44,346 nucleotides of DNA from a virus. Shown here one piece after another: positions 2,413-23,478 of the stretch (position 1 is its first letter; the number at the start of each line of letters is the position of its first letter). The notes beneath the pieces were generated by a model. It did not search any database. It was not told where the DNA came from and saw nothing but the letters and a program-made list of their open reading frames with translations. Both the position numbers and the translations under genes were made by a program. The stretch is taken from IMG/VR virus record IMGVR_UViG_3300042888_000541, positions 1 to 44,346 of that record. One strand, given 5' to 3'.

Positions 2413-2820
2413 ATGAAAAAAACATTAATTGCAGAAACAGCTAGAATTCAAAAGCTTGCTGGTTTAATTACCGAAGAAGAATATATCAATATCACAATGC
2501 CAGAGGCAGAGGAAGAGGAAGAAGTTGAGATGGATGATACTGAGGATAACATGAATGCACCAGAGGAAGATTCTGATGAAGAGTTATCAGCAGAAGAACC
2601 AACATCACTTCCTTCAGATGCAGAAGAAGAGTTTGATATTAAAGGTAGAGCTAACTTATCACAGTTACTTGCAAAGAAGGATCACTTAATATCTAAGTTA
2701 AAAGCAGGAGACATTTCGTTAGATCAATACAAAGTGCAGATTGGAAACGTTCCTGCACAAATCAAAAAGATCAGAGCCAAAGCAGACGCAATGTTAAATG
2801 TATCCGATGAAGAAGATTAG
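2413..2820 (+). CDS. Acidic protein with putative N-terminal capsid-targeting peptide
   Basis: A 135-residue protein. The N-terminus reads MKKTLIAETARIQKLAGLIT followed by EEEY. The IQKLAGLITE core matches the N-termini of the genes at 21808 and 22714 (MQKLAGIITE) and 11565 (FQELAGIQE). ITE (residues 19-21) and IAE (6-8) fit the (L/I)xE site of T4-type prohead proteases. Residues 30-75 are extremely Glu/Asp-rich; the C-terminal 60 residues form a helical hairpin. I infer an internal head protein that enters the prohead with the scaffold and is trimmed. It has both promoter-type elements upstream and overlaps the next gene by 14 bases. Confidence 0.6.
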   Translation: MKKTLIAETARIQKLAGLITEEEYINITMPEAEEEEEVEMDDTEDNMNAPEEDSDEELSAEEPTSLPSDAEEEFDIKGRANLSQLLAKKDHLISKLKAGDISLDQYKVQIGNVPAQIKKIRAKADAMLNVSDEED

Positions 2821-3145
2821 TGTAATAGCAGGACTACTTGTCCTAATATGCTTAGCTGGATTAGCTATATGGACTAGTAAGACCATGGTTAATCTAAAAG
2901 CAGTTGATAAGCAAATTGACTCTTTAAATACTAAAATAGAGGTATTGGAGGAGTTGAATGCAGTAGCTGAGCTTAAGATTGATAGTGTAGAGAATCTTAA
3001 TAAGGATTTAACAACACAAGTTAGTGTACGTGAAGCTAAAATTAAGAAGTTAAAAAAAGAACATGAAAAAACAGTTACAAATATTAATAACTTTAATACT
3101 ACTCAGCTCGACAGCTTTTTCACAAGCAGGTACGGAAACAGATAG
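2807..3145 (+). CDS. Spanin-like inner membrane protein (i-spanin candidate)
   Basis: A 112-residue protein counted from the ATG at 2807; an in-frame ATG at 2798 would add three residues but separates the charged start from the membrane segment. A single N-terminal membrane segment (ISVIAGLLVLICLAGLAIW) precedes a long heptad-like coiled coil (DKQIDSLNTKIEVLEELN and onward) and a C-terminus ending in LDSFFTSRYGNR. This is the architecture of an Rz-type i-spanin. The next gene starts inside it and runs in another frame with an 83-base overlap, as in Rz/Rz1 pairs. In spanins the function is outer-membrane disruption after peptidoglycan lysis; here it is inferred from architecture and from the endolysin upstream. 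Confidence 0.55.
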   Translation: MKKISVIAGLLVLICLAGLAIWTSKTMVNLKAVDKQIDSLNTKIEVLEELNAVAELKIDSVENLNKDLTTQVSVREAKIKKLKKEHEKTVTNINNFNTTQLDSFFTSRYGNR

Positions 3146-3476
3146 TAAACCATACTGCATGCCAACTAAAATGGCAAAAGCAATTGCTGTGGACTTATCA
3201 CACTATGATATTGTGAAGCAGCAATTAGTTTTATGCGATAGTATAGTTGCAGACTTAAAGCAAGTTATTACCAATAAAGATACTGTGGTTAGTCTTTTAA
3301 GACAAAAAGAAACAAACTATCAAGGCATTATTCAAACACAAAACGAAAAAGAAGCTATCTATAAAAAGACAGTCTCACAGTTACAATTCGAACTAACTAA
3401 GTCAAAGTTTACCAACAAATTAAAATCATTCGGATTAATAGGAATCGTTGTAGTGGCACTAACCTTGGCAATTTAA
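3063..3476 (+). CDS. Secreted/membrane protein overlapping the spanin-like gene
   Basis: A 137-residue protein with a clear signal peptide (MKKQLQILITLILLSSTAFS, cleavage likely after SQ) and a C-terminal membrane segment (FGLIGIVVVALTLAI). Between them lies a coiled-coil-prone region with two Cys residues. The start is inside the preceding gene in a different frame. The position suggests the partner of an Rz/Rz1-like pair, but there is no lipobox Cys at the signal cleavage site, so it is not a standard o-spanin. A signal at one end and a membrane segment at the other recalls unimolecular spanins. Other membrane roles remain possible. Confidence 0.5.
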   Translation: MKKQLQILITLILLSSTAFSQAGTETDSKPYCMPTKMAKAIAVDLSHYDIVKQQLVLCDSIVADLKQVITNKDTVVSLLRQKETNYQGIIQTQNEKEAIYKKTVSQLQFELTKSKFTNKLKSFGLIGIVVVALTLAI

Positions 3477-3482
3477 TACAAG

Positions 3483-5066
3483 ATGTCACAGCAAGCAACG
3501 ATAGCAGAAGCGGTCAAACAAGAGCTAATAAAGTGTAAGCAAGATCCTGTTTACTTCATGAAGAAGTATTACACGATTCAACATCCTACTAGAGGAAGAA
3601 TGCACTTTAACCTATATCCTTTCCAAGAGAAGGTTTTATACCTTTTTCAAAAGCATGATAATGCTATCATTAACAAATCAAGACAATTAGGAATATCAAC
3701 ACTATCATCAGCGTATGCATTATGGATGATGTTATTCAATTCAGATAAGAATATCTTAGTAATTGCTACAACTCAAGCAACAGCAAAGAACCTAGTAACA
3801 AAAGTTCGATTTGCATATGAGAACCTACCATCTTGGATGAGACTAAAGGCTTTAGAAGATAACAGACTTAGTTTAAGACTAGCAAACGGATCTCAAATAA
3901 AAGCAGTATCAGCAGCAACAGACTCAGCACGTTCAGAAGCAGTATCTTTACTGGTTATTGACGAGGCAGCTTTTATTGATAGAATTGAAGACATCTTTAC
4001 AGCAGCACAACAAACTCTTGCCACAGGTGGTAAGTGTATTGCTTTATCAACTCCTAATGGTGTTGGTAACTGGTTTCATAAGGAGTTTACAAAAGCACAA
4101 TTAGGGGAGAACAAGTTTATACCTATTAGCTTACCTTGGACAGTACATCCAGAAAGAGAAGAGAGTTGGAGAGAAGAGCAAACCAAGCAATTGGGTGTAA
4201 GAGCAGCTGCACAAGAGTGTGACTGTGATTTTTCAACTTCAGGTGAAACCGTAATCGAACCAGACACTTTAAAATATTTTGAAGAGTTAATAGTTGAACC
4301 TATTGAAAAAAGAGGCATTGATAAGAACTACTGGCTATGGGAATATCCTGACACAATGAAAACCTACATGGTTGTAGCGGACGTTGCTCGTGGAGATGGA
4401 AAAGACTTTTCAACTTTCCATGTTATTGACATAGAAGCAGCAAAGCAAGTAGCTGAATACAAAGGACAGCTTCCTACCAAAGACTTCTCTTATATGTTAA
4501 TTACAGTAGCGACTGAGTGGAATAATGCACTATTAGTTATTGAGAACAAAAACATAGGATGGGATGTAGTATCTACAATCCAAGAAAGAGGATATTTAAA
4601 CCTATATTATTCACCAAGATCTGAAATCATGGGAACAAATGTTGAGATGTACATCAACAAGTTTGAAAGAGGAGATGGAATGGTACCAGGATTCACAACA
4701 AGTCAAACCACAAGACCTCTAGTAATAGAGAAGATGAGATCCTTCATGGAAGATCATAGTGTTATAATACAATCTGAAAGGTTATTAGCAGAATTACGAG
4801 TATTTATATGGAGGAATGGAAAAGCACAAGCACTTAACGGGTATAATGATGACCTAGCAATGGCTTGGGCAATTGGACTTTTTCTAAGAGACACAGCTCT
4901 ACGATTTAGACAAACTGCATACAACTTAACATATGCAAGTTTAAATAGCTATTCTAGAGGGAGTCAAGGTTTCGACGTATATCAATCAAACGCAGCATAC
5001 ACACAAAATCCGTACTCGATGCCTTTAAACGATCGAGAACAGACGGACATAACATGGCTTTTATAA
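3483..5066 (+). CDS. terL: Terminase large subunit (gp17-like packaging ATPase/nuclease)
   Basis: A 527-residue DNA-packaging motor and headful nuclease. The ATPase domain has a deviant Walker A, KSRQLGISTLS (residues 65-75), as in many T4-like terminases, and a Walker B, LLVIDEAAF, with D160 and E161. The motif CIALSTPNG (about 185-193) is the coupling region. The RNase H-like nuclease domain begins at MVVADVARGDGKDFSTFHVI (D300), with VIENKN and NDDLAMAW supplying further acidic residues. The length is close to that of T4 gp17 (610). It starts 6 bases after the previous gene and is followed 9 bases later by the portal gene, the usual T4-like pairing. No small terminase subunit was recognised in the window. 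Confidence 0.95.
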   Translation: MSQQATIAEAVKQELIKCKQDPVYFMKKYYTIQHPTRGRMHFNLYPFQEKVLYLFQKHDNAIINKSRQLGISTLSSAYALWMMLFNSDKNILVIATTQATAKNLVTKVRFAYENLPSWMRLKALEDNRLSLRLANGSQIKAVSAATDSARSEAVSLLVIDEAAFIDRIEDIFTAAQQTLATGGKCIALSTPNGVGNWFHKEFTKAQLGENKFIPISLPWTVHPEREESWREEQTKQLGVRAAAQECDCDFSTSGETVIEPDTLKYFEELIVEPIEKRGIDKNYWLWEYPDTMKTYMVVADVARGDGKDFSTFHVIDIEAAKQVAEYKGQLPTKDFSYMLITVATEWNNALLVIENKNIGWDVVSTIQERGYLNLYYSPRSEIMGTNVEMYINKFERGDGMVPGFTTSQTTRPLVIEKMRSFMEDHSVIIQSERLLAELRVFIWRNGKAQALNGYNDDLAMAWAIGLFLRDTALRFRQTAYNLTYASLNSYSRGSQGFDVYQSNAAYTQNPYSMPLNDREQTDITWLL

Positions 5067-5075
5067 CATATTAAA

Positions 5076-7007
5076 ATGGCAGAACAAAAACCACAAGCTA
5101 ATTTATTCACAACGTTAAAGAGATTATTCTCTACTGACGTAATCATACGTAACGATGGTGGAGAATTAAAGACAATTGACACAGAAAGAATACAAGTAGA
5201 TGGTGTATTACAAACCAATGCTTTAGTTGACCGTTTTAATCGTGTCTACACGACTTCAACGTCGTATGGTGTAAACCTTAACCTTTCACAGAACTATCAA
5301 TCTGCACGTGTTCAAATCTATGCAGACTACGAAGCAATGGATACAGATCCAATTGTAGCTTCTGCTTTAGATATTATAGCTGATGAGTGTACTCTTAAGA
5401 ATGAACAAGGAGAAATCTTACAAATCCGTTCTGCAGATGAGAACATTCAAAAGATATTATACAACTTATTCTACGATGTATTAAACATTGAGTTTAACTT
5501 ATGGTTCTGGTGTCGTAATATGTGTAAGTATGGTGACTTCTATCTTAAGTTAGAGATTGCTGAGAAGTTTGGAGTTTATAATGTAATCCCTTTCTCAGCA
5601 TACAACGTTGTAAGATTAGAAGGAACAAATCCAAACAATCCATCAGAGGTTGTATTTAAGTACGATCCAACAGCTGCTTTAGGATCAACAACAGGATACT
5701 CAACAGCATATCGTAACTTAGATCAAGGAATTACCTTCTACAATTATGAGATGGCTCACTTTAGATTGATTGGTGATATTAATTACTTACCTTACGGTAG
5801 ATCTTATCTAGAGCCAGGTAGAAAGTTATTCAAGCAATATGTTTTAATGGAAGATGCGATGTTAATCCATCGTATAACACGTGCTCCAGAAAGAAGAGTA
5901 TTTTATGTAAACGTAGGAGCTATACCTCCAAATGAAGTTGAAAACTACATGCAAAGAATGATCAGCAAGATGAAAAAGACTCCTCTTGTAGATCCGCAAA
6001 CAGGTAACTATAATGTGAAGTACAATGTACAGAACATGTTAGAAGACTTCTTCATTCCAGTAAGAGGAAACGATCAATCAACTCGTATTGATACTGCAAA
6101 GGCATTAGAATATAACGGTATTGAGGATATCAACTACTTACTTAACAAACTATTTGCAGCATTAAAGATTCCTAAGGCATTCTTAGGATATGAAAAAGAC
6201 TTAACAGGTAAAGCAACTTTAGCAGCAGAGGATATTAGATTTGCTAGAACCATTGAAAGATTACAACGAATCATGCTTAGTGAGTTAACTAAGATTGCAA
6301 TCGTACATCTTTACTCTAACGGATACACAAACGAATCAATTGCTAACTTTGAATTAAACTTAACAACTCCTTCTATCATATACGATCAAGAACGTATTGC
6401 ACTAATGAAAGAGAAAGTAGACTTAGCTGCACAGATGATTGAAAACAGCTTACTTCCAACAGATTGGATCTATGATAAGATCTTCCACTTCTCTGAAGAT
6501 GAGTTTGATGAGTATCGTGATTTAATTGTAGAAGATAAGAAGAGAGCATTCAGATTCAAACAAATTGAAGAAGAGGGTAACGATCCAGCAGAATCAGGAC
6601 AAGCATTTGGTACACCACATCAAATCGCATCAATGTATGGTGGTAATGGTAATACTAACTTAGCAGGTACTGAAGTTCCTCAAGGATATAACGAGATTAA
6701 CCCTAACGAACCAGTTAAGTTACCAGGAAGACCACAAGAAAAGACTTCATTAATTAACACACAAGGAGATCCATTAGGACAAGATAGAACTGGATTATAT
6801 GCTATGAAAGCTAAGGCAACAAGTGGAGAAGATAGCTTAAAAGTGAAATATCAAGGTAATTCACCACTTGCATTAGAGTATAACAACACAAAAGCTGTAT
6901 ACTATAAGAACAAAGAGGTACTAGCTGAACTAGGTAAAAGGAAAGTAGACTTATACAAAGACTCGGATTTATTGAATGAAAATCAAATAAAACCTGATTT
7001 AGAGTAA
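5076..7007 (+). CDS. gp20: Portal vertex protein (gp20-like)
   Basis: A 643-residue portal subunit; twelve copies form the ring through which DNA is packaged and to which the neck binds. The central block MLIHRITRAPERRVFYVNVG (about residues 268-287), preceded by YLPYGRSYLEPGRKLFKQYV, is close to the T4 gp20 signature. IPKAFLGYEKDLTGKATLA and the following long helix match the stem region. The C-terminal 110 residues are polar and repetitive in character and probably variable. It lies directly downstream of terminase; the gap after it holds a TATTTATA octamer. Confidence 0.94.
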   Translation: MAEQKPQANLFTTLKRLFSTDVIIRNDGGELKTIDTERIQVDGVLQTNALVDRFNRVYTTSTSYGVNLNLSQNYQSARVQIYADYEAMDTDPIVASALDIIADECTLKNEQGEILQIRSADENIQKILYNLFYDVLNIEFNLWFWCRNMCKYGDFYLKLEIAEKFGVYNVIPFSAYNVVRLEGTNPNNPSEVVFKYDPTAALGSTTGYSTAYRNLDQGITFYNYEMAHFRLIGDINYLPYGRSYLEPGRKLFKQYVLMEDAMLIHRITRAPERRVFYVNVGAIPPNEVENYMQRMISKMKKTPLVDPQTGNYNVKYNVQNMLEDFFIPVRGNDQSTRIDTAKALEYNGIEDINYLLNKLFAALKIPKAFLGYEKDLTGKATLAAEDIRFARTIERLQRIMLSELTKIAIVHLYSNGYTNESIANFELNLTTPSIIYDQERIALMKEKVDLAAQMIENSLLPTDWIYDKIFHFSEDEFDEYRDLIVEDKKRAFRFKQIEEEGNDPAESGQAFGTPHQIASMYGGNGNTNLAGTEVPQGYNEINPNEPVKLPGRPQEKTSLINTQGDPLGQDRTGLYAMKAKATSGEDSLKVKYQGNSPLALEYNNTKAVYYKNKEVLAELGKRKVDLYKDSDLLNENQIKPDLE

Positions 7008-7014
7008 ACTTAAC

Positions 7015-7022
7015 TATTTATA
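7015..7022 (+). promoter_or_regulatory. TATTTATA octamer (late-promoter candidate)
   Basis: TATTTATA lies 16 bases before the ATG at 7039, in the short gap after the portal gene. It supports ATG 7039 rather than the in-frame TTG at 7033. Confidence 0.5.
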
Positions 7023-7038
7023 ATCAAGCATATTGAGT

Positions 7039-7890
7039 ATGATCAAACATTCAAAATTCAAGAATACAGGACTATTATTTGAACTGTTAGTAAGGCAAGC
7101 AACATCAGATTTGATGTCAAATAAAGTGCCTGAGGCAGTAAGAATATTCAAGAAGTATTTTACAAATACAGAACTTAGTAAGGAGTATAATCTATATACA
7201 TCTGTAATAAATGCACCTAAATTATCAGAAGGCAAAGCAGATATCCTAATATCTACAATTGTAGAGCAAGCATCTAGATTAGATAAAGAGAAGTTAAGCA
7301 AAGAGAAGTACAACTTGATTAGAGAGATTAAGAAGCACTACGATCTTGATAACTTTTTTAAAGCTAAGATTGAAGCATACAAGATTCATGCAGCTGTTTA
7401 TACATTGTTAGAATCACAGATAGCAAAGGAATTTACTAACACTCAACAGTTAATGTCTAACAAATTAACGCTGTTAGAGCACATAACAAAGGAAAATGTT
7501 GCAGAGAAGTCTAAGACTCCAACAGTAGCAGAAGAGTTTTTAAAGGAAGATAAGGAGATTAGATTGCTTGCATACAAGTTCTTAGTTGAAAAATTTAACG
7601 AAAAGTATGCTAATCTATCAGATGAGCAGAAAGAAATCTTAAAAGAATACATAAACAACATTTCAGATACAAAGCAGTTAAAGAATTTCTTGAATTCTAG
7701 ACTAGAAGCAGTTAAATTTGAACTTACAAACCTATCAAAGACGGTTGAAGATGATGTTGTTAAGATTAAGTTAGCAGAAGTTTTGACATTCATTAAGCCA
7801 ATCGGAGCAAGAGAGTCTGTTAAGGACGATGTTATTGTAGGTTTAATGCAATACTATCAACTAATCAACGAGCTTAAATCTATAAAGTAA
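7039..7890 (+). CDS. Conserved head-region protein, function unknown
   Basis: A 283-residue, strongly helical, lysine- and glutamate-rich protein. The N-terminal KHSKFKNTGLLFELLVRQAT is a motif I recognise from proteins located next to the portal in other T4-like aquatic phages; no role is established that I know of. I chose the ATG at 7039 over a TTG two codons upstream. The gene follows the portal, where T4 has its prohead core genes 67 and 68. Its stop overlaps the start of the next gene by one base (TAATG), so the two are translationally coupled. A prohead core or assembly role is inferred from position. Confidence 0.6.
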   Translation: MIKHSKFKNTGLLFELLVRQATSDLMSNKVPEAVRIFKKYFTNTELSKEYNLYTSVINAPKLSEGKADILISTIVEQASRLDKEKLSKEKYNLIREIKKHYDLDNFFKAKIEAYKIHAAVYTLLESQIAKEFTNTQQLMSNKLTLLEHITKENVAEKSKTPTVAEEFLKEDKEIRLLAYKFLVEKFNEKYANLSDEQKEILKEYINNISDTKQLKNFLNSRLEAVKFELTNLSKTVEDDVVKIKLAEVLTFIKPIGARESVKDDVIVGLMQYYQLINELKSIK

Positions 7891-8660: not shown

Positions 8661-8661
8661 A

Positions 8662-9182: not shown

Positions 9183-9194
9183 AACATACTATAA

Positions 9195-9202: not shown

Positions 9203-9205
9203 TAC

Positions 9206-10921
9206 ATGAAAAGTATAAAACAGCAATACATTAGCCTGCAAGAAGGTAACATGACTCAAGCGAACTTCATGCGTAACTTACGTATGACTTTACCTAATTA
9301 CATTAGTAATGTAACTTCATACGACGACTCTGTTAAGATTTTAAAGAATAAGGGAATCTTAACTGAGGGTGAGATCAAAGCATTCATGAAAAAAGAATGT
9401 GTAGATTGTGGAGATGAATCTGAAATGGCTCATTCACAATTAAGATCGATTCAAAATAACGCAGGAGAGTTAACAGACTTAGTTGGAGATAATATGGACT
9501 TAGAAGCATGGGTTCAATCTAAGCTTACAAAAGCACAAGATTACATGCAAGCAGCTAAGGATGCATTATCTGCAAAACAAGCACAGAGTGGATTAACATA
9601 TGAAGCTGCTGGAAACGGAAAGACTGAAAGCGAGTACTATGTTGAGTTAGATGAGTTCTTATCTGAAGAAGGTATTTTTGGATATACAGATCGTATTCAT
9701 GATATTATGACAGGCCAAGATAGAAGATTTAATCCTAGTCAACTTCAAGCATATTTAGATGATCCAGACGGAGACGGCTTTGGAATCTTTGGATATAGTA
9801 AACCAATTAAAGACATCTACGAGGACTATCCAATATCTCCTAAGAAGAGAATGAATGAAAGTATATTAAAAGAAGTTAAAGAAGAAATTTCTCCATCAAT
9901 TGATAGAGTTAATCCATACATCTTAAAGAGAGCTGTAGAGTTTGAATTGAGTAAAATGGATGCTATTAGTGATGAGAACTACATAAAAGCTATCAACAAG
10001 GTAGTAAAGGCATTAACTAAAGATCCAAAAGCATACATCGACTTACAAACTACCAATGCAACGCAAATGGAGAAGGTTGATAAAAACTTAAGAATGAAAG
10101 CTGCTACAAAGGAAAACTACGTAGATACAGCTAATGGAATGAAAACTGTAGTTAAGAACGAAAAAGGAAACGTTAAAGATAACTTAGGTAATAAAGAAAA
10201 AGCAAAGAGCGATACTGCAGGTATTAAGTTAATGAAGTTAAAAGAGCATTTACTTAAAGAGCTTCACGGAATGGAAGAACCAACAGAAGCTAACATTGCT
10301 TCAGGATCTGAAGTTGAATATGAAGGTAGAGTAGGAGTAGTAACTGAAGTAGATGCTTCAACAGCATTAGTAGAGTTTCAAGATGGTACTTCAAAGTACG
10401 TACAAACAAATGTATTGAAGAAGTCAGAATCTAAATCAGTACCTCAAGAACCTGAAGTAGAGAAGACTGAAGTAAACAAGACTGGTGCAGATAAGTTAAA
10501 GGGACTTGTTAACAAGATGATGAAAGAGGCTGATAAATCGCTTCCACTTACATCAGATAGTTCATTTGGAAAAGCATATGACTTTATACGCAGAAGTGGT
10601 GAAGAGGGTGCTTCTTTATTAAGATCTAAGGAAATTAGTAATGCTGCTCAACTAAAAAAAGCCTTACAAAATAACACAATCACTATAGACAATATTGATG
10701 CTGTAGTTGTAAATTCGTTTGATCAAAAACTCTCAGACACAGACATATGGAAAAAGATTACTAAAGAACTTGAATCGTCGGATATGGTGAAAGAGGTTGG
10801 TGTAATAGAAAATCCAATAACAAAACAAGTCATTGATGTCCTTAAAACTCCTCAAGAAGCTACTGCAGCAGCTGCATCATTAAGAAAAAGAGGAATCGTC
10901 GTAAAACCGGGAGAAAGATAA
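9206..10921 (+). CDS. Large head-cluster protein upstream of the prohead protease, unknown
   Basis: A 571-residue multi-part protein. The N-terminus has [20 protein letters not shown] (residues 10-29), a phrase I recognise from structural proteins of related phages; LQE fits a prohead protease site. Residues about 150-215 ([20 protein letters not shown] and [18 protein letters not shown]) form an aromatic block. Near 365-400 a small beta domain ([28 protein letters not shown]) looks like a KOW/SH3-type barrel. The C-terminal about 120 residues are separate and mixed. It ends 3 bases before the protease gene. I infer a prohead core or internal protein, with low certainty. Confidence 0.5.
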
Positions 10922-10924: not shown

Positions 10925-11560
10925 ATGGAAAAGAACGTATTAATAGAGCATATAACATTTACACCACGACCAGAGCAGTTAAACGAATCTAAGTTTAACC
11001 AAGATAAACCTCTAATCGTGTCAGGAAAGATACAAGCTGCAGACAAACCAAATGCAAATCTTCGTATCTATACCTATGATGCTTTGAATGCGCAAGTTCA
11101 AAAGTACATTGATGGACCAATCAACGAAAGAAGATCATACGGAGAGTTAGACCACCCAGAGTCTAGCATCATTAATTTAAAAAATGCAAGCCATATTATC
11201 ACAAGAATGTGGTGGGAAGGTAAAGATCTTTATGGAGAATTTGAAATTCTATCAACTCCATCAGGTAATATATTAAAAGAGCTATTTCACAAACGTTGTA
11301 CGGTAGGTGTTTCATCAAGAGCATTAGGATCAACAATGCCAATTGGAGAAGGAATCGTACAAGTAGGTGATGATTTAGATCTTATTTGTTGGGACTTTGT
11401 ATCAAATCCATCTACATATGGAGCGTATGTAAAGCCAGCAGGAGGATTAAATGAAGGATACAATGCAGGTACAACTAATCCATATACTAAATACGCAAGT
11501 GTAAACAGAATGATCTCTGATCTAATATGTTCACAGTCAGGTGTATGCTGTCTGAAGTAA
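10925..11560 (+). CDS. gp21: Prohead maturation protease (gp21-like)
   Basis: A 211-residue serine protease that matures the prohead by cutting scaffold, core and capsid proteins at (L/I)xE sites. The catalytic His lies in RRSYGELDHPESS (H77), and the Ser in CTVGVSSRALGS (S130 or S131). The order H, then S, then a C-terminal acidic loop matches the herpes/T4 assemblin fold. LNE at about residue 20 and LNEG near residue 175 are candidate autocleavage sites. The gene sits upstream of the core protein, scaffold and capsid genes as in T4 (21-22-23). Confidence 0.9.
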   Translation: MEKNVLIEHITFTPRPEQLNESKFNQDKPLIVSGKIQAADKPNANLRIYTYDALNAQVQKYIDGPINERRSYGELDHPESSIINLKNASHIITRMWWEGKDLYGEFEILSTPSGNILKELFHKRCTVGVSSRALGSTMPIGEGIVQVGDDLDLICWDFVSNPSTYGAYVKPAGGLNEGYNAGTTNPYTKYASVNRMISDLICSQSGVCCLK

Positions 11561-11564: not shown

Positions 11565-11873
11565 ATGAACGAACTAAAAAGATTTCAAGAACTAGCAGGA
11601 ATACAGGAAAGAGAATTCAATATAATTCCTGATGAAAATCCATTGGATGATGTTCCGGGAATCGTGATAGACATAGATGATGATAACAATATGTTCGTTC
11701 AAATGAGTGCTTTATATCATGACAGTACAAACGGTAAGATGGCACTTCTAAAGGATAATCCAGCACTACAAGAGCTTGTAATGAAGGCAATTCAACAAGA
11801 AACACAAAAAGCATTCAGAAAAGCAGTACATGGTATCCTAGGTATACCGTACGGTCTAAAAGAAACTAAATAA
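11565..11873 (+). CDS. Small prohead core protein with LAGI targeting motif
   Basis: A 102-residue protein between the protease and scaffold genes, the position of a prohead core protein. The N-terminus MNELKRFQELAGIQEREF carries the same [hydrophobic]Q-x-LAGI motif as the proteins at 2413, 21808 and 22714. IQE (13-15) is a fitting prohead protease site. The rest is acidic (VIDIDDDNNMF) with a C-terminal helix (ALQELVMKAIQQETQKAFRKAVHGI). Its location is the main reason to read the shared motif as a head-targeting signal. No closer family was recognised. Confidence 0.6.
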   Translation: MNELKRFQELAGIQEREFNIIPDENPLDDVPGIVIDIDDDNNMFVQMSALYHDSTNGKMALLKDNPALQELVMKAIQQETQKAFRKAVHGILGIPYGLKETK

Positions 11874-12024: not shown

Positions 12025-13080
12025 ATGAGTACTAATCAAGAATTGTACAAACAAGCTATCCTTGATGCTAAAGCAGTTCGCGAGTCAGCGTTAGCTAATG
12101 CAAAGTCAGTTTTATCTGAAACTTTCGAGCCGAGGATTAAAGAGATGATGCGTTTAAAGCTATCAGAAGAGCTAGACGAAATGGAAGAAACTGAAGAGAC
12201 TTTAGATAACATCGTTGATACAGACATGGAAGAAGTAAAAAATTCAAACATGGAAGAATCTACATTAGATGATATCTTAGCTGAGCTTGATGCTATCGAA
12301 AACGAAGGCAAAGAGTCAACAGAAGAACCAGAAACGATGAACGAAGAAGCAGGGGAAGCTGAAGAAGAAACTGAAGAGGAAGAATCCTCAGAAGAAGAAG
12401 TTATGGGTGATGAAGGTGAAGAAGAAGAAGTGCAAGATGACACAGAAGTAGTAGACATTACTGTAGGCGAGTTTAAAGAGATCATTCGTGATTTATTTAA
12501 CACTTTACAAGGTGGTGGAGTAGGCATGGAAGACATGCAAGATACTGCTGATGCTGAAATGCAAGCTGGAGAAGACGATGAAATTTCTTTAGAAGAAATC
12601 ATAGCACAATTAGAAGGCGAGGACAATGCGGAAGAAGACGAAATGTTGAACCCAATTGAAGAAGCTAAAAAATCTATGAAGAAAGACGAAAAGAAAAAAG
12701 ACGAAGAGAAGAAAGAAAAAGAGGAAATGGCTAAAGAGCTTAAAGAAGCTATCAAGACAATCCAATCTTTGAAGTCGGAACTTAACGAGATTAACTTATT
12801 AAACGCTAAGTTACTTTACGTAAACAAACTTTTCAAATCTAAATCTTTAAACGAATCACAAAAAGTAAAAGTTCTTAATGCATTTGATAGAGCAACAACT
12901 GTAAAAGAAGCAGAGAACACTTACAAAACGTTAAATGAATCGTTATCATTAACTAAGAAGTCAACCATTAAAGAATCGGTTGGATTCGCATCTAAGCCAA
13001 TGGGTAATGCACCAGCAAAACCAATTGTAGAACACGATGCATCAGTTAGTAGATGGCAGCACTTAGCGGGTATTAAATAA
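12025..13080 (+). CDS. gp22: Prohead scaffold/core protein (gp22-like)
   Basis: A 351-residue, extremely Glu-rich protein with the hallmarks of a T4-type scaffold that fills the prohead and is later digested. Residues 45-230 are nearly continuous acidic segments, followed by a Lys/Glu charged helix and the conserved C-terminal block INLLNAKLLYVNKLFKSKSL (about 253-272) with NESQKVKVLNAFD. It ends in SRWQHLAGIK, which repeats the Q-x-LAGI motif found at the N-terminus of four other proteins here. It lies upstream of the major capsid gene with a 39-base gap. The Glu-rich coding causes a long serine-rich shadow frame on the opposite strand. Confidence 0.87.
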   Translation: MSTNQELYKQAILDAKAVRESALANAKSVLSETFEPRIKEMMRLKLSEELDEMEETEETLDNIVDTDMEEVKNSNMEESTLDDILAELDAIENEGKESTEEPETMNEEAGEAEEETEEEESSEEEVMGDEGEEEEVQDDTEVVDITVGEFKEIIRDLFNTLQGGGVGMEDMQDTADAEMQAGEDDEISLEEIIAQLEGEDNAEEDEMLNPIEEAKKSMKKDEKKKDEEKKEKEEMAKELKEAIKTIQSLKSELNEINLLNAKLLYVNKLFKSKSLNESQKVKVLNAFDRATTVKEAENTYKTLNESLSLTKKSTIKESVGFASKPMGNAPAKPIVEHDASVSRWQHLAGIK

Positions 13081-13119: not shown

Positions 13120-14808
13120 ATGTCAAATTTAGTAAATTCATTATTAGAATCTGCTAACCCATACCAAAATCAGGCAGGTGTTAGTCAGAAATTAGCCGCA
13201 AAATGGGCTAAGTCAGGCCTCTTAGAAGGCTTGTCAGATTACAACCGTACAAACATGGCTGTAATGTTAGAAAACCAAGCTAAGCAATTAGTATTAGAGC
13301 AATCAAGTACAGGTGGTGGTTCAACTTCAGGTGCAACATTCACTCCAGGTACTGGTGAGCAATGGGCAGGTGTAGCTTTACCATTAGTACGTAAAGTATT
13401 TGGTCAAATCGCATCTAAAGAGTTTGTTTCGGTACAACCGATGAACTTGCCAGCAGGTTTAGTATTTTACTTGGACTTTCAATACGGTACAGACAAAAAC
13501 CCATTCGGTTTAGGTGCTGCAACTGGTTCATTGTTCGGTAATCAAACAATTGTAGGTGATAGTGGTTTCGGTAACGCTGCTGCTGGTGGTCTTTATGGCG
13601 CTGGTAAGTTTGCTTACTCAATCAACCAATTCTCATCTTCAGTATCATCTTCAGCAACAGGATTTGCTTCAGCATCTGCTACATTTGCAGACGTTAACTT
13701 TGATGCAAATTACTCAAGCTCAATCGTAACTAAGTCGATCACTAAGTTCACTTTACCTACAGCTTCTATTAGCTCTGACGTTGATTTGAACGGTGTTCGT
13801 GCATTCATCATTACTTCAGGTTCAACTGTTACTCCAGGAACTAACTTACAAGCATTTACAACTGTATCTTCAAGTGCAGCTGGTGTGTTCGTACAATTCC
13901 TTGTTAATGCAGCAGTAGCTTTAGGTGGTGTTTCAACTACTTACGTTGTTGAGTACAACAAGAAAACTGACTTCAACAAAATGGGTGACTTCCAAGATGC
14001 TCCTGCAACTGGATACTCAACTCCAAATGCTGAATCAGCAACACAAATCGTTATCCCTGAAATTAACGTACAAATGAGATCAGAGACTATTTCTGCTAAG
14101 ACACGTAAGTTGAAAGCACAATGGACTCCAGAATTTGCACAAGACTTAAACGCTTACCATTCATTAGATGCAGAAGCTGAATTAACAGGTATGTTATCTG
14201 AGTACATCTCTTTAGAGTTAGACTTAGAAATCTTAGACATGTTGATCCAAAATGCTCCTACTACTGAGTATTGGTCAGCGAAAGTTGGTAACCAAATCAA
14301 CTCTACTTCAACTGGATTTGATAGCAACACAGCTGGTGTATACTACACTCAGATGACTTGGTTCCAAACTTTAGGTATCAAATTACAAAAAGTTTCTAAC
14401 ATTATTCACCAACGTACTTTACGTGGCGGTGCTAACTTCATGGTAGTTTCTCCAACAGTAGCTACAATCTTGGAATCAATCCCAGGATTCGCAGCAGATA
14501 CTGATGGTGCAGCAGATACAATGAAATATGCATTTGGCGTACAAAAAGTAGGTCAATTGAATAGCCGTTACAAAGTATACAAGAATCCTTACATGATTGA
14601 GAACTTAATCTTGATGGGCTTCCGTGGTAACCAATTCTTAGAAACAGGTGCTGTTTATGCTCCATACGTTCCTTTAATCATGACTCCACTTATCTACGAT
14701 CCAGCTACCTTCACTCCAAGAAAAGGTATCATGACTAGATACGCTAAGAAAATGGTTAGACCTGAATACTATGGTAAAGTATTAGTAGCAGACTTAAACT
14801 TAGTTTAA
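13120..14808 (+). CDS. gp23: Major capsid protein (gp23-like)
   Basis: The 562-residue HK97-fold shell protein. VSVQPMNLPAGLVFYLDFQY (about 103-122), preceded by LPLVRKVFGQIASKEF, matches the T4 gp23 signature. The N-terminus resembles the gp23 delta domain (LAAKWAKSGLLEGLSD versus the LLNKW...LLEG of T4). Maturation probably removes about 60 residues; the best candidate site is LVLE before QSSTGGG (cut after E60), although the P3 residue is Val rather than Leu/Ile. Ser/Ala/Gly-rich segments at 165-215 may be a surface insertion. A strong terminator follows within 30 bases, fitting very high expression. Confidence 0.95.
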   Translation: MSNLVNSLLESANPYQNQAGVSQKLAAKWAKSGLLEGLSDYNRTNMAVMLENQAKQLVLEQSSTGGGSTSGATFTPGTGEQWAGVALPLVRKVFGQIASKEFVSVQPMNLPAGLVFYLDFQYGTDKNPFGLGAATGSLFGNQTIVGDSGFGNAAAGGLYGAGKFAYSINQFSSSVSSSATGFASASATFADVNFDANYSSSIVTKSITKFTLPTASISSDVDLNGVRAFIITSGSTVTPGTNLQAFTTVSSSAAGVFVQFLVNAAVALGGVSTTYVVEYNKKTDFNKMGDFQDAPATGYSTPNAESATQIVIPEINVQMRSETISAKTRKLKAQWTPEFAQDLNAYHSLDAEAELTGMLSEYISLELDLEILDMLIQNAPTTEYWSAKVGNQINSTSTGFDSNTAGVYYTQMTWFQTLGIKLQKVSNIIHQRTLRGGANFMVVSPTVATILESIPGFAADTDGAADTMKYAFGVQKVGQLNSRYKVYKNPYMIENLILMGFRGNQFLETGAVYAPYVPLIMTPLIYDPATFTPRKGIMTRYAKKMVRPEYYGKVLVADLNLV

Positions 14809-15601: not shown

Positions 15602-15615
15602 AACAACAAGGGTAA

Positions 15616-16782: not shown

Positions 16783-16783
16783 G

Positions 16784-17275: not shown

Positions 17276-17277
17276 AC

Positions 17278-18141: not shown

Positions 18142-18181
18142 GTTAGTATTATAAAAATACACTTTTAGCCAATAGATTAAC

Positions 18182-18189
18182 TATTTATA
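18182..18189 (+). promoter_or_regulatory. TATTTATA octamer (late-promoter candidate)
   Basis: TATTTATA lies 19 bases before the ATG at 18209. The gap is AT-rich and contains no other gene. Confidence 0.52.
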
Positions 18190-18208
18190 CATAACAAACA
18201 AATTACAC

Positions 18209-18457: not shown

Positions 18458-18482
18458 TAAGGTTTTTCACAGTACAACTAGA

Positions 18483-18490
18483 TATTTATT
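18483..18490 (+). promoter_or_regulatory. TATTTATT octamer (late-promoter candidate)
   Basis: TATTTATT lies 20 bases before the tail sheath ATG at 18511, the expected distance for a late promoter with a short A-rich leader. Confidence 0.6.
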
Positions 18491-18510
18491 ACAAGCAATA
18501 AATCAACAAA

Positions 18511-20757
18511 ATGGCAGAAGCATTATTATCACCAGGCGTTTTCGTACAAGAAAACGATGCATCACAAATAACACAAGGACCTTTACAAGCTGGAGCAGCT
18601 TTGTTAGGACCTACCGTAGTAGGACCAGTTAATATTCCTACAATTGTTAGATCATATTCAGATTATCAAGCAAAGTTTGGTAGTTTGTTTATTTCAGGAG
18701 GCGTTAACTACGAGTATTTAACGTCAATTGCTGCGGCAAACTACTTTGAACAAGGTGGTGAGTCGTTGATTGTAACAAGAGTAGCATCAGGATCTTATAC
18801 TCCTGCACAATCTACAACTATTCCAAACAATGTAATAGCATCAGCAGGTACTCCGGCAACAGCATCAGCATCAACAACTTCAGGTTGGATCACAGGATCA
18901 CTACCATCATATAACATATCAGCAACTGGTTCAAATATGATAGTAGAGTTTGCAATTGGAGACAACATCTACTTTATAAGTCCAGGTATCTACGATCTAG
19001 TAGACAATGCTGCAGACTTTATTTCTGTCAACGTAAACAATGGAACTGGAAGCTGGAACGTTGATCAGTGGGCTACTGCACTAGTAAAAGGAGTTAATAA
19101 CCCAACTGGTGATTTAAAAAACTATGTTACTGCATCATACACCACAGGATCATTATCGTTTACAGGATCTGCTTTATTAAGCAACCCAGCAAATGCTAAT
19201 GGATATAAAATATACGCTAATGGTTTTAGCAGTTGGCCAGTTACATCGTCTGCACTTCCTACAAAAGATAGATTAAGCACCGTAGCAATATTTGGTGGAG
19301 CATCAGCAAATGTTAACAACTCTACTTTTACATTAGAAACCCTTTCAGTAGGTGACATCATGAACAACTCTGCAAATGCTGCATCAGCATCTAACGGAGT
19401 ATTACCTTCAGGTTCTTCTTCAAACATTCGTTGGGAGATTACAGGAGCTGATACAGGATCAGGTGTTTTCACAGTATTGATTAGAAGAGGTGATGATTAT
19501 CAAAACTCAAAGACAATTTTAGAAACTTGGGCTAATGTATCATTAGATCCAAATCAAAGTAATTATATTGCATACGTAATTGGAGATCAAACACAAACAG
19601 TATTAACTGATGAGTTTGGTAATCCATACTTACAAACTACTGGAAGCTATGCAAACGCATCAAGATACGTAAGAGTTAAAGAAGTTATTTCACCAACACC
19701 AAACTACTTTACTCCACAAGGACAACCAGTAACATTATATAAATCTTACATCCCAACAAACGGAAGTGGATCTCTTAATGGAAGTTTCCAAAGTGCAGTA
19801 GGACCTATCCACGGTGTTTATGGAATTGCAGCTTTGAACATGTTTGAAAACATTAAGGTATCAGACTCAACAGCAGCAACTCCTTCAACAAACATTCAAG
19901 GTGTATTTGCAAGTGATTACGATACAGCTCTTGGATTATTGAAGAGTGGTGAAGATTACGACTTCAACATCGTATCAATGCCAGGTGTTACTTATCAAAA
20001 CGCAGCTGACCAAGTCAATACCTTACTATCAAACGTAAGTGAAAGAGGTGATGCGATTGCAGTAGTAGATATGGTAACATACGGTCAATCTTTAACAGAG
20101 GTTGGAAGCAACGCACAAAGCATTGATAACTCTTATGGAGCTACATACTGGCCATGGATTCAAGTAAGATCACGTGAGACAGGTAAATTAAACTTCGTAC
20201 CAGCTTCTACAATTGTACCAGCAGTATACGAATACTCAGACAAAGTTTCTGCAGAGTGGTTTGCACCAGCAGGTATGACTAGAGGTGGTTTACCAACAGT
20301 ATTACAACCAGAAAGAAAGTTAACAGTATCAGCTAGAAATACATTGTACGGATCTAAAGTAAATCCAATCGCAGTATTCCCAGGACAAGGTACAGTTATC
20401 TACGGACAAAAAACATTACAATCAAAACCATCTGCATTAGATAGAGTAAACGTAAGACGTTTGTTAATATCTTTGAAGAGATACATTAAGCAAATTGGTA
20501 ACACATTAGTATTCGAACAGAACACTGCAGTAACAAGAAACAAATTCTTGTCACAAGTTAATCCATACTTAGATTTTGTACAACAAAAGCAAGGCTTATA
20601 TGCATTCCGTGTAGTAATGGATGAGACAAACAATACACCAGATGTAATCGATAGAAATCAATTGATTGGTACTATCTACATCCAACCTACTAGAACAGCT
20701 GAATTTATTCAATTAGACTTTAACGTATTGCCAACAGGAGCTACTTTTGGTCAATAG
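18511..20757 (+). CDS. gp18: Tail sheath protein (gp18-like)
   Basis: The 748-residue contractile sheath subunit. The N-terminus ALLSPGVFVQENDAS (4-18), then GPVNIPTIVRSYSDYQAKFG, is the canonical sheath start that forms the handshake strand. The middle (about 110-420) is a Ser/Thr/Gly-rich surface insertion region. The C-terminal third (from about 545) has the conserved core: YWPWIQVRSRETGKLNFVPA, WFAPAGMTRGGLP and the final IYIQPTRTAEFIQLDFNVLP. Its presence fixes the virus as a myovirus. It is slightly longer than T4 gp18 (659). It has its own octamer upstream. Confidence 0.95.
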   Translation: MAEALLSPGVFVQENDASQITQGPLQAGAALLGPTVVGPVNIPTIVRSYSDYQAKFGSLFISGGVNYEYLTSIAAANYFEQGGESLIVTRVASGSYTPAQSTTIPNNVIASAGTPATASASTTSGWITGSLPSYNISATGSNMIVEFAIGDNIYFISPGIYDLVDNAADFISVNVNNGTGSWNVDQWATALVKGVNNPTGDLKNYVTASYTTGSLSFTGSALLSNPANANGYKIYANGFSSWPVTSSALPTKDRLSTVAIFGGASANVNNSTFTLETLSVGDIMNNSANAASASNGVLPSGSSSNIRWEITGADTGSGVFTVLIRRGDDYQNSKTILETWANVSLDPNQSNYIAYVIGDQTQTVLTDEFGNPYLQTTGSYANASRYVRVKEVISPTPNYFTPQGQPVTLYKSYIPTNGSGSLNGSFQSAVGPIHGVYGIAALNMFENIKVSDSTAATPSTNIQGVFASDYDTALGLLKSGEDYDFNIVSMPGVTYQNAADQVNTLLSNVSERGDAIAVVDMVTYGQSLTEVGSNAQSIDNSYGATYWPWIQVRSRETGKLNFVPASTIVPAVYEYSDKVSAEWFAPAGMTRGGLPTVLQPERKLTVSARNTLYGSKVNPIAVFPGQGTVIYGQKTLQSKPSALDRVNVRRLLISLKRYIKQIGNTLVFEQNTAVTRNKFLSQVNPYLDFVQQKQGLYAFRVVMDETNNTPDVIDRNQLIGTIYIQPTRTAEFIQLDFNVLPTGATFGQ

Positions 20758-20766
20758 TAACTAGAT

Positions 20767-21114
20767 ATGAATAACAATACAAAGATTAGATTACATTTAT
20801 CCAAAGCTCTACTAGAGTCTATAATGAAAGATATTATTTTAGAAGGTAAGGTTAGCCATGCGCAAAAGCTTACCTCTAAAATGAAAAAGCTTGGCGAGAA
20901 TAAAGCTATGAAAAAAGCTAAGGCTAAGATGGAAGAGACTATAGATGTAACTCCTGGAAAGACTTATAAGTATCGTGATGAAAACATTACATTTATTAAG
21001 TCTGGTAAAGATGGCAATGGTAAAGAGTTCTATGAGTTTGAGAATGAGGCTGGCAAGAAGATATTCTTCTTCCCTACTACAGACTTAGACATGTTGAAAC
21101 CTATTAATCAGTAA
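20767..21114 (+). CDS. Small basic protein between sheath and tube genes, unknown
   Basis: A 115-residue protein. Residues 1-60 are basic and helical (LTSKMKKLGENKAMKKAKAK); residues 62-115 form a small beta domain (GKTYKYRDENITFIKSGKDG, then EFENEAGKKIFFF). The N-terminus includes ALLE and IILEGK, both fitting the (L/I)xE protease rule, so it could be another processed internal protein; this is weak evidence. It begins 9 bases after the sheath stop and is probably co-transcribed with it. Confidence 0.5.
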   Translation: MNNNTKIRLHLSKALLESIMKDIILEGKVSHAQKLTSKMKKLGENKAMKKAKAKMEETIDVTPGKTYKYRDENITFIKSGKDGNGKEFYEFENEAGKKIFFFPTTDLDMLKPINQ

Positions 21115-21161
21115 ACACTAAAGTAGTTATACATTTAAGCAATAAAAAGCTAACATAAAGA

Positions 21162-21169
21162 TATTTATT
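21162..21169 (+). promoter_or_regulatory. TATTTATT octamer (late-promoter candidate)
   Basis: TATTTATT lies 16 bases before the tail tube ATG at 21186, in a 71-base gene-free gap. Confidence 0.57.
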
Positions 21170-21185
21170 TTAAAATAAAAAGAAC

Positions 21186-21671
21186 ATGCCAGTATTAGAC
21201 CCGAACGAGATAATGTTTACAGCTTTTGAACCAACCGTTCAAAACAGATTCATATTCAACATAGATGGAATCCCAGCTTACACTATTAAAAGTGCTACAG
21301 CACCAAACTTCTCACTAACTGAAATCAAGTTAGACCACATCAACGTTTACCGTAAGTTAAAAGGTAAGTTAGAGTGGGGAGATATGACTTTAAAGTTATA
21401 CAACCCAATCGCTCCTTCAGGACAACAAGCGGTAATGGAGTGGTTACGTTTATCACACGAGTCAGTAACAGGACGTGATGGATACTCAGATTTCTACAAG
21501 AAAGATGTTAGCTTATGGATCTTAGGTCCAGTAGGTGATGTTGTTTCAGAGTGGATTGTAAAAGGAGCTTTCATTAAGTCTTCAAACTTTGGATCATACG
21601 ATTTCGCAAATTCAGAGGCAGTTGAAATCGAGATGGTATTAGCGATGGATTTTTGTATCTTAAATTATTGA
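21186..21671 (+). CDS. gp19: Tail tube protein (gp19-like)
   Basis: The 161-residue inner tube subunit, the same size as T4 gp19 (163). PTVQNRFIFNIDGIPAYTIK, then WGDMTLKLYNPIAPSGQQAV and MEWLRLSHE, are the characteristic tube strands. The C-terminal half (KDVSLWILGPVGDVVSEWIV) completes the barrel. It is one of the late tail genes with its own octamer. Downstream, the tail operon is interrupted by the cargo-like cassette before resuming at 23608. Confidence 0.93.
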   Translation: MPVLDPNEIMFTAFEPTVQNRFIFNIDGIPAYTIKSATAPNFSLTEIKLDHINVYRKLKGKLEWGDMTLKLYNPIAPSGQQAVMEWLRLSHESVTGRDGYSDFYKKDVSLWILGPVGDVVSEWIVKGAFIKSSNFGSYDFANSEAVEIEMVLAMDFCILNY

Positions 21672-21742
21672 TACTGCGTACTGAATTACTACTTTTTAAA
21701 AGCACTCATCTGCTTATTAGAAAATAATTAAATTAAAAAAAA

Positions 21743-21774
21743 GTTGGCTTTTTAAAATTAAAGGTAGATCTTTA
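21743..21774 (+). promoter_or_regulatory. Host-type promoter candidate of the cargo cassette
   Basis: GTTGG (21743-21747), with 20 bases between TTG and the -7 box GATCTTTA (21767-21774). The 32-base stretch is strikingly similar to the one before queD (43218-43249): both start GTTGG, have a T run and an A-rich middle, and end ATCTTTAG. It lies 33 bases before the gene at 21808. Confidence 0.65.
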
Positions 21775-21807
21775 GGCCATTATAAAAAGCATATACAAAT
21801 ATAAAGC

Positions 21808-22680
21808 ATGAAAAAACTTAACGAACAAGCATTGCAAATGCAAAAATTAGCAGGTATTATCACTGAAAGTGAATATAATACTGAGATGGCTAAGATGGAT
21901 AACACTCCTAAAATGGAAGCTGAGGAAGAAGGAACTTCTGGTGGGGTAACTATAACATCTCAAGAGGAGTTAGATACCTATGTTGAGGAGAATGGCTTAG
22001 TTATTAATGGAAGCATAGAGAATAATTACGATCCAGAGTCTGGAGGGGAATTTTATGGTGAAAGTATTGAATTACCTGATAACTTAACTATAAAAGGAAA
22101 TTTATCAGGAGGAGATTTTGCTTTAGGTAACAACCTTACAATTGAAGGAGAGTGTTATTTTAATGTGGATAGTAGATATGTAGTAAATATGATTAAAATA
22201 CTTGATAAATCAAGTAATCACAATCTTATAACAGCAACGCACTTAGCTAAGAAGTTAGTTGTTAATACTCCCCAAGCAGATTTTGACTGGGGTAGTGCTG
22301 ATGAGCTAGTGTTACCAGACAACTTTATATGTGAAAGTGCATGGTGTATGTTATCTGCAGAAAAACCTTTTGAAAACGTAGAAAAAGCTACCATAGTAGT
22401 AAAAGGAGATCTTGATCTATTTGGCTCATTCGAAGGAGTAGATGATAATACATTTAGAGAATTTGCAAAGAGATTAAAAGTTACGGGTGATTGCCACCTT
22501 CTTTTTGGCTTCCCATCTTACTCAGAAGAGATGACAGATGAAGAAATAAGACAAATCTTCCCTAATGTTGAGGGAGAGATAGAAATTCGTACTAGAAAAG
22601 TACCAAACACAAAAGCACAACCAGACTCAGCAGCATCTATGAATGAAATGAATAAGATGAAGCGTAAGTCTAGAATGTAA
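21808..22680 (+). CDS. Putative capsid-targeted cargo protein with solenoid-like body
   Basis: A 290-residue protein. Residues 1-30 are nearly identical to the N-terminus of the next gene: MQKLAGIITESEYN (11-24), with ITE (18-20) as a candidate prohead protease site. The body (about 48-265) has repeated LPDNLTIKGNLSGG / LGNNLTIEGECYF / VVKGDLDLFGSFEG phrases suggesting a beta-solenoid or LRR-like sheet. The C-terminus is a Met/Lys/Asn linker, AASMNEMNKMKRKSRM. Function is unknown. I infer an internal head protein delivered with DNA. It has its own host-type promoter and shares a terminator with its paralogue. Alternative: a superinfection or host-modifying protein not in the virion. Confidence 0.6.
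   Translation: MKKLNEQALQMQKLAGIITESEYNTEMAKMDNTPKMEAEEEGTSGGVTITSQEELDTYVEENGLVINGSIENNYDPESGGEFYGESIELPDNLTIKGNLSGGDFALGNNLTIEGECYFNVDSRYVVNMIKILDKSSNHNLITATHLAKKLVVNTPQADFDWGSADELVLPDNFICESAWCMLSAEKPFENVEKATIVVKGDLDLFGSFEGVDDNTFREFAKRLKVTGDCHLLFGFPSYSEEMTDEEIRQIFPNVEGEIEIRTRKVPNTKAQPDSAASMNEMNKMKRKSRM
21828..21897 (+). repeat. 70-bp direct repeat, copy 1 (LAGIITE coding)
   Basis: This is identical to 22734-22803 except for one base (CTGAG versus CCGAG). It encodes residues 8-30 of the protein at 21808, covering the putative targeting peptide and cleavage site. The conservation is at DNA level, which suggests recent duplication or gene conversion of the tag only, since the downstream bodies are unrelated. 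Confidence 0.92.
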
Positions 22681-22713
22681 TACAACTAAATAAAACACAA
22701 ACAAACACATAAT

Positions 22714-23478
22714 ATGAAAAAATTAGACGCATCAGCATTGCAAATGCAAAAATTAGCAGGTATTATCACTGAAAGTGAATATAATACCGAGATGGCTAAG
22801 ATGAATAAAATGGAAGCTGAAGAAGGTTCAGGAGCAAATACCTACAAAGTAGTAGAGATTGGATCTAGAGGTGAAGAAGAGGGTGAAGAGATGGTGAAGA
22901 GTGACTTAAGTATCGAAGAATTCTGTAAAGAGCTATTAAAGAAAGAACAGGCAGAGATATTAGCAATGGCTGACAGTGCTGAAGAACGTGCAGAAACACT
23001 ACGTCACTTTAAAGAATTTTCAGGTGTTGGTGAATATGATGATAAATGGGAAGTAGCAGTTACTGAAGAAACAGGATACGATGTATACACAGAAGACCAA
23101 GCAGCATCTATGAATGAAATGAATAAGATGAACAAGATGGGACGTCATTCTAAAATGGAAGAAATGAATAAGATGAAGTCTGCTTCTAAAATGAAAGAAG
23201 CTGAAGAAGAGGGTGAAAATGTCTATAGAGTAGAAAAAATTGGATCTAGAGGTGCAGTAGAGGATGAAGATATAATTGATAGTGATTTAAACATTGAACA
23301 ATTCTGTAAACAATTACTAAAAGATAAGATGGAGGAAGAGTTATCACAAATCACTGATCCTAAGCAACGTGCAGAAATGCTAGCTGACTTTAAGGAATGG
23401 ATGAATGTTGGTGAGTATGGTGACCATTGGGAAGTAACTTACAGTGAAGAATCAGGATATAAAGTATATCAAATGTAA
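22714..23478 (+). CDS. Putative capsid-targeted cargo protein with tandem duplicated domain
   Basis: A 254-residue protein. The N-terminal 30 residues match the gene at 21808 (MQKLAGIITE, with ITE at 18-20). The rest is two copies of one domain of about 83 residues: copy 1 at 43-125 (YKVVEIGSRGEEEGEEMVKS) and copy 2 at 170-252 (YRVEKIGSRGAVEDEDIIDS), each ending GEY.D.WEV..(S/T)EE(T/S)GY.VY. They are joined by a Met/Asn/Lys-rich linker (AASMNEMNKMNKMG) that resembles the C-terminus of the upstream protein. No known fold was recognised. The gene ends 26 bases before a terminator. It is probably co-transcribed with the gene at 21808. Confidence 0.62.
   Translation: MKKLDASALQMQKLAGIITESEYNTEMAKMNKMEAEEGSGANTYKVVEIGSRGEEEGEEMVKSDLSIEEFCKELLKKEQAEILAMADSAEERAETLRHFKEFSGVGEYDDKWEVAVTEETGYDVYTEDQAASMNEMNKMNKMGRHSKMEEMNKMKSASKMKEAEEEGENVYRVEKIGSRGAVEDEDIIDSDLNIEQFCKQLLKDKMEEELSQITDPKQRAEMLADFKEWMNVGEYGDHWEVTYSEESGYKVYQM
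22734..22803 (+). repeat. 70-bp direct repeat, copy 2 (LAGIITE coding)
   Basis: The second copy of the repeat at 21828-21897, with one mismatch. It encodes residues 8-30 of the protein at 22714. Confidence 0.92.

Follow-up and report, generated by a model that had tools for sequence, protein, structure and literature searches.

The viral DNA analysed here (IMG/VR record IMGVR_UViG_3300042888_000541, positions 1 to 44,346; hereafter the window) is a 44 kb piece of a T4-like myovirus, in which profile searches located genes for the large terminase, the portal, an S77 prohead protease, a gp23-type major capsid protein (MCP) and the tail sheath and tube. Four of its predicted proteins begin with a helix that closes with Q-x-LAG[IL] and is followed by [IL]xE, a peptide that we refer to as the LAGI tag. 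An earlier reading of the DNA from its letters alone (the sequence-only reading) had taken this peptide for a modular signal, cut by a gp21-like protease, that loads diverse cargo into the phage head for injection. The tagged proteins and the head genes that bear on this proposal are listed below (aa, amino acids; nt, nucleotides; pI, isoelectric point).

2413..2820, + strand: tagged protein of 135 aa; tag MKKTLIAETARIQKLAGLITE (nt 2413-2475), predicted cut after E21, mature form 114 aa with pI 4.1
11565..11873, + strand: tagged protein of 102 aa between the protease and scaffold genes; tag MNELKRFQELAGIQE (nt 11565-11609), predicted cut after E15, mature form 87 aa with pI 4.8
21808..22680, + strand: tagged protein of 290 aa; tag MKKLNEQALQMQKLAGIITE (nt 21808-21867), predicted cut after E20
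22714..23478, + strand: tagged protein of 254 aa; tag MKKLDASALQMQKLAGIITE (nt 22714-22773)
10925..11560, + strand: Peptidase_S77 prohead core protein serine protease of the T4 gp21 family, the predicted tag remover (PF03420, 3.5e-22; phrog_207, 2.7e-43)
12025..13080, + strand: gp22-like scaffold protein of 351 aa whose C-terminus is the tag motif (assigned by its position between the S77 protease and the MCP, its acidic composition and homology among relatives)
13033..13077, + strand: scaffold C-terminal tail HDASVSRWQHLAGIK, following a predicted cut after E336, the last residue of PIVE (conserved in 49 distinct relative tails)
13120..14808, + strand: gp23-like MCP (phrog_138, 3.1e-70; alignment of 56 relatives)

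Tagged proteins of the window

All four N-terminal sequences picked out by the sequence-only reading (those of 2413, 11565, 21808 and 22714) are present, against 0.037 expected from the internal rate of [QK]x[LI]AG[ILVM] in relatives (P≈7e-8), and LAG[ILMV]-type motifs are scarce in the rest of the window. The candidate cleavage glutamate is residue 15-21 of these proteins. As that reading also held, the window encodes a gp21-like protease, and one tagged gene, 11565..11873, lies between it and the scaffold gene.

The first 90 nt of the genes at 21808 and 22714 are identical at 83 positions and their upstream DNA is dissimilar, from which it appears that the tag was recently copied as DNA between these neighbours and has one origin, not two inventions. 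The bodies of the two proteins fall into separate BLAST clusters, and the copy would demonstrate that transfer of the tag to a different body is possible. The earlier statement of four tagged proteins with unrelated bodies is upheld, with the two tags of these neighbours counted as a single origin. The same likeness, with no counterpart upstream, would suit an N-terminal segment serving translation or expression as a leader, mobile or prone to recombination, that spreads by DNA copying and plays no part in head assembly. We regard this explanation as very improbable and have rejected it: L, A and G of the tag are written with several codons, synonymous variation which indicates that selection acts on the peptide; the tag also occurs at C-termini and in mid-protein, which contradicts a leader role; and it equals the scaffold C-terminus, kept in outgroups that have no N-terminal copies (see below).

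A single-sequence AF2 model of the 21808 protein (mean pLDDT 69) has a helix at residues 2-14, a loop at 15-19 that holds the cut site and a second helix at 20-31; its body, which has no known relative, is predicted to be beta-rich, and a structure search of the model against PDB and BFVD gave no match at E<=0.001. The corresponding single-sequence model of the 22714 protein is poor (pLDDT 60). In both models the motif ends a helix and the predicted cut falls in a short loop ahead of the next one. The 22714 body is internally duplicated, with one domain repeated twice, and both proteins hold an AASMNEMNKM-type low-complexity segment. A homologue of the 11565 protein (L026:6195-6512) bears the tag MKTEVKHLQKLAGILKE.

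The scaffold tail and the distribution of the motif

The closest isolate to the window is Flavobacterium phage immuto (MCP identity 55%), and Rhodothermus phage RM378 (MCP 35% identical) and Mel-JY01, catalogued as a Microcystis phage, are farther relatives; the tag-bearing phages appear to form a T4-related group on Flavobacterium-like hosts. About 75 relatives were retrieved by capsid homology. Enrichment was calculated on the 2022 proteins of the window and nine near-complete relative genomes, namely one isolate and eight IMG/VR records whose completeness is not established. Genes were called by a simple longest-ORF (open reading frame) rule and bodies were clustered by BLAST.

The scaffold of the window, which had no match in profile searches, carries a fifth copy of the tag that had escaped the sequence-only reading: its residues 343-351 are RWQHLAGIK, the protein ends in ...SVSRWQHLAGIK and the gene reads to a terminal ...KPIVEHDASVSRWQHLAGIK. 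The immuto scaffold, gp067, ends in ...QVSRWQKLAGIIK, and two hypothetical proteins of the same phage, gp083 and gp230, start with MKKQILSEQF[KR]RMQ[FK]LAGIITES. Practically all scaffolds among the relatives close with the tag peptide, as do all 49 distinct tails (49/49), in which R, A and G are invariant. This identity of tag and scaffold C-terminus supports the head targeting that had been proposed for the tag and supplies a mechanism that was not part of the sequence-only reading. The common core, [RK]-[MWFL]-Q-x-L-A-G-[IL], is found at all scaffold ends of the group and at the starts, ends or interiors of many unrelated proteins, and an (L/I/V)-x-E site such as gp21-type prohead proteases cleave is almost always close by.

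The outgroup scaffolds end likewise (RM378, ...LERIKRLAGL; Mel-JY01, ...VERMKKLAGIVK), which suggests that the scaffold tail peptide is ancient. No N-tagged proteins were found in RM378 or Mel-JY01, and the scaffold use of the peptide therefore probably preceded its use at N-termini. The scaffold ends of T4 (...SVYAKVASRF) and cyanophage P-HM1 (...SYVQQLAKRL) are perhaps remote versions of the same peptide. The start of the T4 scaffold gp22, MLKEQLIAEA, resembles the T4 capsid-targeting sequence (CTS), MKTYQEFIAEA (L278, L279), hinting that the T4 tag may likewise mimic a scaffold end, there the N-terminus.

In the enrichment set the motif occurs, per 1e5 sites, 55 times in the first 25 residues, 119 times at the C-end and 3 times in interiors, an excess over interiors of about 19-fold at N-termini (Fisher 3e-18), where the sequence-only reading had expected it in related phages, and of 40-fold at C-ends (1e-13). 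In each genome of the set the scaffold is tagged, and one to four proteins carry the tag at the N-terminus. A gapped 4-mer search that used no prior motif ranked the tag among the top N-terminal patterns (20-27 instances vs 0-1 per interior block), and the motif was matched 43 times in the forward direction vs 2-5 times by reversed or scrambled controls.

A DNA pattern for MQKLAG[LIVFM]ITE was found in at least 119 stretches of IMG/VR, with 98 of the 124 instances among the matches listed at an ORF start. In bacterial and archaeal genomes totalling 257 Gb the same pattern matched once, in a phage head cluster of a Flavobacteriaceae metagenome-assembled genome, where a 61-aa tagged protein lies between protease and scaffold. 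When the tag was compared by tblastn with 50,697 phage records, clear matches were confined to the four immuto records, and one weak match (E=3) fell in an uncultured jumbo phage.

We assign almost no probability to chance likeness, or to bodies that are remote homologues and have kept one ancestral N-terminus. Clustering by BLAST only could miss remote homology of some bodies, but the enrichment at both termini and the reversed and scrambled controls led us to reject chance for the set as a whole; the only match in cellular genomes is itself a phage head cluster, and a switch of terminus within one body family, described next, also speaks against this explanation.

Movable tags and predicted protease sites

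The IMG/VR scan yielded at least 146 distinct N-tagged proteins in at least 82 mutually unrelated body clusters (BLAST), 66 of them singletons. In one body family the tag is N-terminal in L199 but C-terminal in L017 and L036, with bodies 56-66% identical. In another arrangement the tag stands in mid-protein after LNES, at a fusion joint: what follows it is encoded in other phages as a tagged protein of its own, which would suit a polyprotein meant for cutting at the tag. Two proteins, of G010 (805 aa) and G006 (926 aa), have the LAG motif at both the N- and the C-terminus. A family of 805-926 aa with the N-terminal LAG motif, in two members also C-terminal, includes L255:16471-19251 (-), L236:2104-4521 (+) and L170:4975-7608 (+); a transmembrane segment and an OmpA-like stretch were noted in it by eye and were not confirmed by Pfam at E<=5. 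Between protease and scaffold genes, apart from short spurious ORFs, most insertions are tagged (seven with N-LAGI, two with C-LAGI and one with MIKL, a tag described below), an interval that is, by its gene content, a putative slot for tagged genes.

An S77 protease gene is present in 18 of 20 tagged relative contigs, and the two that lack it may be fragments. The N-tag glutamate stands at +9 from the motif M in 72 of the 82 body clusters among the matches listed, a figure that is biased because many loci were found with an ITE-containing pattern; the fair figure, from loci not selected for ITE, is 19 of 24 clusters. In 42 of the 49 scaffold tails, an [LIVM]xE glutamate precedes the M/W position by 8 residues. 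The glutamate is therefore on opposite sides of the motif, at +9 in N-tags and -8 in scaffolds, such that either cut would part the LAG peptide from its body. The MCP offers similar sites: among 56 aligned relatives its N-terminal region has invariant LxE sites at E10, E36, E51 and E60, which are consistent with the protease specificity, and E60 (cut after VxE) is the likely maturation site, matching T4 gp23 E65 in position. Taken with the gp21-like protease (PF03420), the N-terminal enrichment and the 82 body clusters, the position of the glutamate strongly supports the earlier proposal of a modular, protease-flanked tag on diverse proteins.

Weaker candidates for the same signal had been named at 1867, 7890, 9206, 20767 and 44094. 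One of them is retained:

9206..10921, + strand: head-region protein with a candidate N-terminal LQE/G site at residue 13 (L[LQMN]EGK in many relatives)

In this protein L[LQMN]EGK occupies residues 11-15 in many relatives and is lost in others. The other four were rejected: 1867 and 7890 show no N-terminal conservation, 20767 has only a near-identical homologue, and 44094 has no homologue in the loci searched.

Two further N-terminal peptides recur in these phages. MIKLxDLLKE is found on diverse proteins 29 times against 0.4 expected (L209:833-1345, L226:15476-16300, L273:14408-18875, L084:24569-24994 and L282:12276-14718, among others), and Pfam matches to its bodies include Zeta_toxin/AAA_33, the NT5C nucleotidase and the restriction-endonuclease (REase)-like domain EC042_2821. 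Its layout of 10 residues, with hydrophobics at 4, 7 and 8 and E at 10, parallels the T4 CTS MKTYQEFIAE. The third peptide, about NFDLKKFLxENKLTxNSxLLKE (FDLKKFLxENKLT), was matched 11 times where 1.1 matches were expected, and by eye two of the 11 look spurious; it stands on several immuto proteins (L083 and L084, at record coordinates 1803, 103806, 117631 and 118632), and further examples are in G007:86763, L273:8963-9625 and L005:489-1250. It replaces the LAGI tag on homologues of the window protein at 2413, whose counterparts in L273 and L005 carry it at the same place (FDFYKFVTEN / FNYKQFLTEN).

Elsewhere in the window, two small overlapping ORFs at 2798-3476, near the endolysin and terminase genes, have an N-terminal transmembrane segment in one and a signal-peptide-like start in the other, and form a possible candidate spanin pair. 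The region at 6-368 matches PHROG 858, a starvation-inducible transcriptional regulator (2.6e-27); we presume that its product is perhaps a Dps-like protein.

Proposed loading mechanism and known systems

We consider it probable that the LAGI peptide is a portable capsid-loading tag which copies the C-terminal docking peptide of the scaffold and which the prohead protease takes off. As the prohead assembles, the scaffold tail would dock on a partner, most likely the inner capsid shell, with the core or the portal as possible sites, and tagged proteins would occupy the same kind of dock and thereby be enclosed in the prohead. Once activated, the S77 protease would cleave between the motif and the body, just after the glutamate, leaving the mature protein free in the head while the peptide is lost, and the same cleavage logic would free the scaffold from its tail. 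The freed proteins would then either leave as core material or stay and enter the host with the DNA.

The capsid shell is the likeliest dock, by analogy, because the C-terminal hydrophobic domain of the herpesvirus scaffold attaches to the MCP until proteolysis releases it (PMC10090080), and the herpesvirus protease is homologous to gp21 (PMC9026906). Docking on the scaffold core itself, through self-association of tails, appears to us unlikely. T4 CTS propeptides do target proteins to the core (PMC9026906), and the scaffold copies carry the peptide, so that their tails could associate with each other; the herpesvirus precedent points instead to the capsid protein (PMC10090080), and the scaffold's own end would more simply be the ligand of a non-scaffold partner.

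Several observations weigh against the loading-tag interpretation, or against its extension to injected cargo. Tagged bodies are acidic, with computed pI below 6 in 65 of 80 and a median of 4.5, unlike the basic T4 internal proteins (IPs; pI 7.9-9.7), which does not point to injected cargo bound to DNA as in T4. Domains were recognised in almost none of the bodies (Pfam and PHROGs searches of 96 proteins returned almost nothing, with five weak families each), and no effector function thus backs injection. Five of the 24 clusters lack LxE at +9, with such a site at another position within 18 residues in four of these. Inspection by eye of tags and scaffold tails from the same genome gave no clear sign of covariation, and we found no virion proteomics in the literature for any tagged phage. 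Of the earlier proposal of diverse head cargo for injection, the modular tag stands and the T4-like injected cargo is weakened by the median pI.

The acidic bodies leave room for DNA mimics or core proteins, and some tagged bodies may be prohead-core proteins rather than injected cargo. In its general form, this alternative holds that tagged proteins are accessory scaffold components like T4 gp67/gp68, which work in head building and are freed or destroyed by the protease. It accords with bodies as acidic as the scaffold and T4 gp67, and with the frequent position of tagged genes between protease and scaffold, including 11565 in the window. Many unrelated bodies, scattered gene positions and patchy presence between phages, on the other hand, have the look of accessory genes rather than core machinery, and a few LxE cuts would be enough to free an intact body; we judge it a minority possibility beside the portable loading tag. 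A wider view is that a scaffold shell-docking peptide has become a general loading tag, used at either end and at fusion joints, beside two parallel tags (MIKLxDLLKE and FDLKKFLxENKLT) as head addresses, together giving flavobacterial phages a large accessory repertoire of proteins that are packaged and probably injected; on this view our opinion is evenly balanced.

The LAGI peptide was not described in the literature that we found, which also did not state the binding partner of phage capsid-targeting signals, even that of T4. With one readable peptide, more than 80 families of anonymous phage proteins become predicted contents of proheads or virions. The scaffold tail is named as the likely source of the tag, which makes the question of CTS binding testable in the isolate Flavobacterium phage immuto, and the peptide may provide an N- or C-terminal capsid-loading handle for Bacteroidota phages.

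Parallels are found in several known systems. As with the herpesvirus scaffold and assemblin, the scaffold of the LAGI phages terminates in a conserved hydrophobic peptide, preceded directly by a protease site, here predicted, at which cleavage would free the scaffold; the herpesvirus peptide is not known on cargo, and the dock in LAGI phages is proposed by analogy. In phage P1, a reporter is loaded into the head when it carries no more of DarB than the N-terminal 30 residues (PMC9024508), but no consensus common to the Dar proteins was found in that work, and P1 apparently has no separate scaffold. Ejection proteins of the SPN3US/phiKZ type have N-terminal propeptides removed by the prohead protease, and the diverged proteins gp53 and gp54 have identical N-termini (PMC5694885); several of these propeptides, unlike the LAGI tag, exceed 100 residues, with no LAG motif reported and no known link to a scaffold tail.

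A parallel in logic is T4, in which gp21 cleaves after (L/I)xE and strips CTS propeptides, and packaging of IPIII needs only its first 10 residues (PMC9026906). Both systems combine targeting with release, placing a short N-terminal propeptide that ends in (L/I)xE on differing bodies (IPI-III in T4) beside an S77 protease and a gp23-type capsid. The LAGI tag differs in having no sequence similarity to MKTYQEFIAE, and the T4 IPs, whose sequences we read, have no LAG motif. It is also longer, carries its LAG motif ahead of the cut as a separate element, matches the C-terminus of its own scaffold, is found at N-terminal, C-terminal and internal positions, and is borne by acidic rather than basic bodies. 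The CTS-like 10-mer of the LAGI phages is a separate tag, MIKLxDLLKE. The LAGI tag would work like the T4 CTS and is unrelated to it in sequence.

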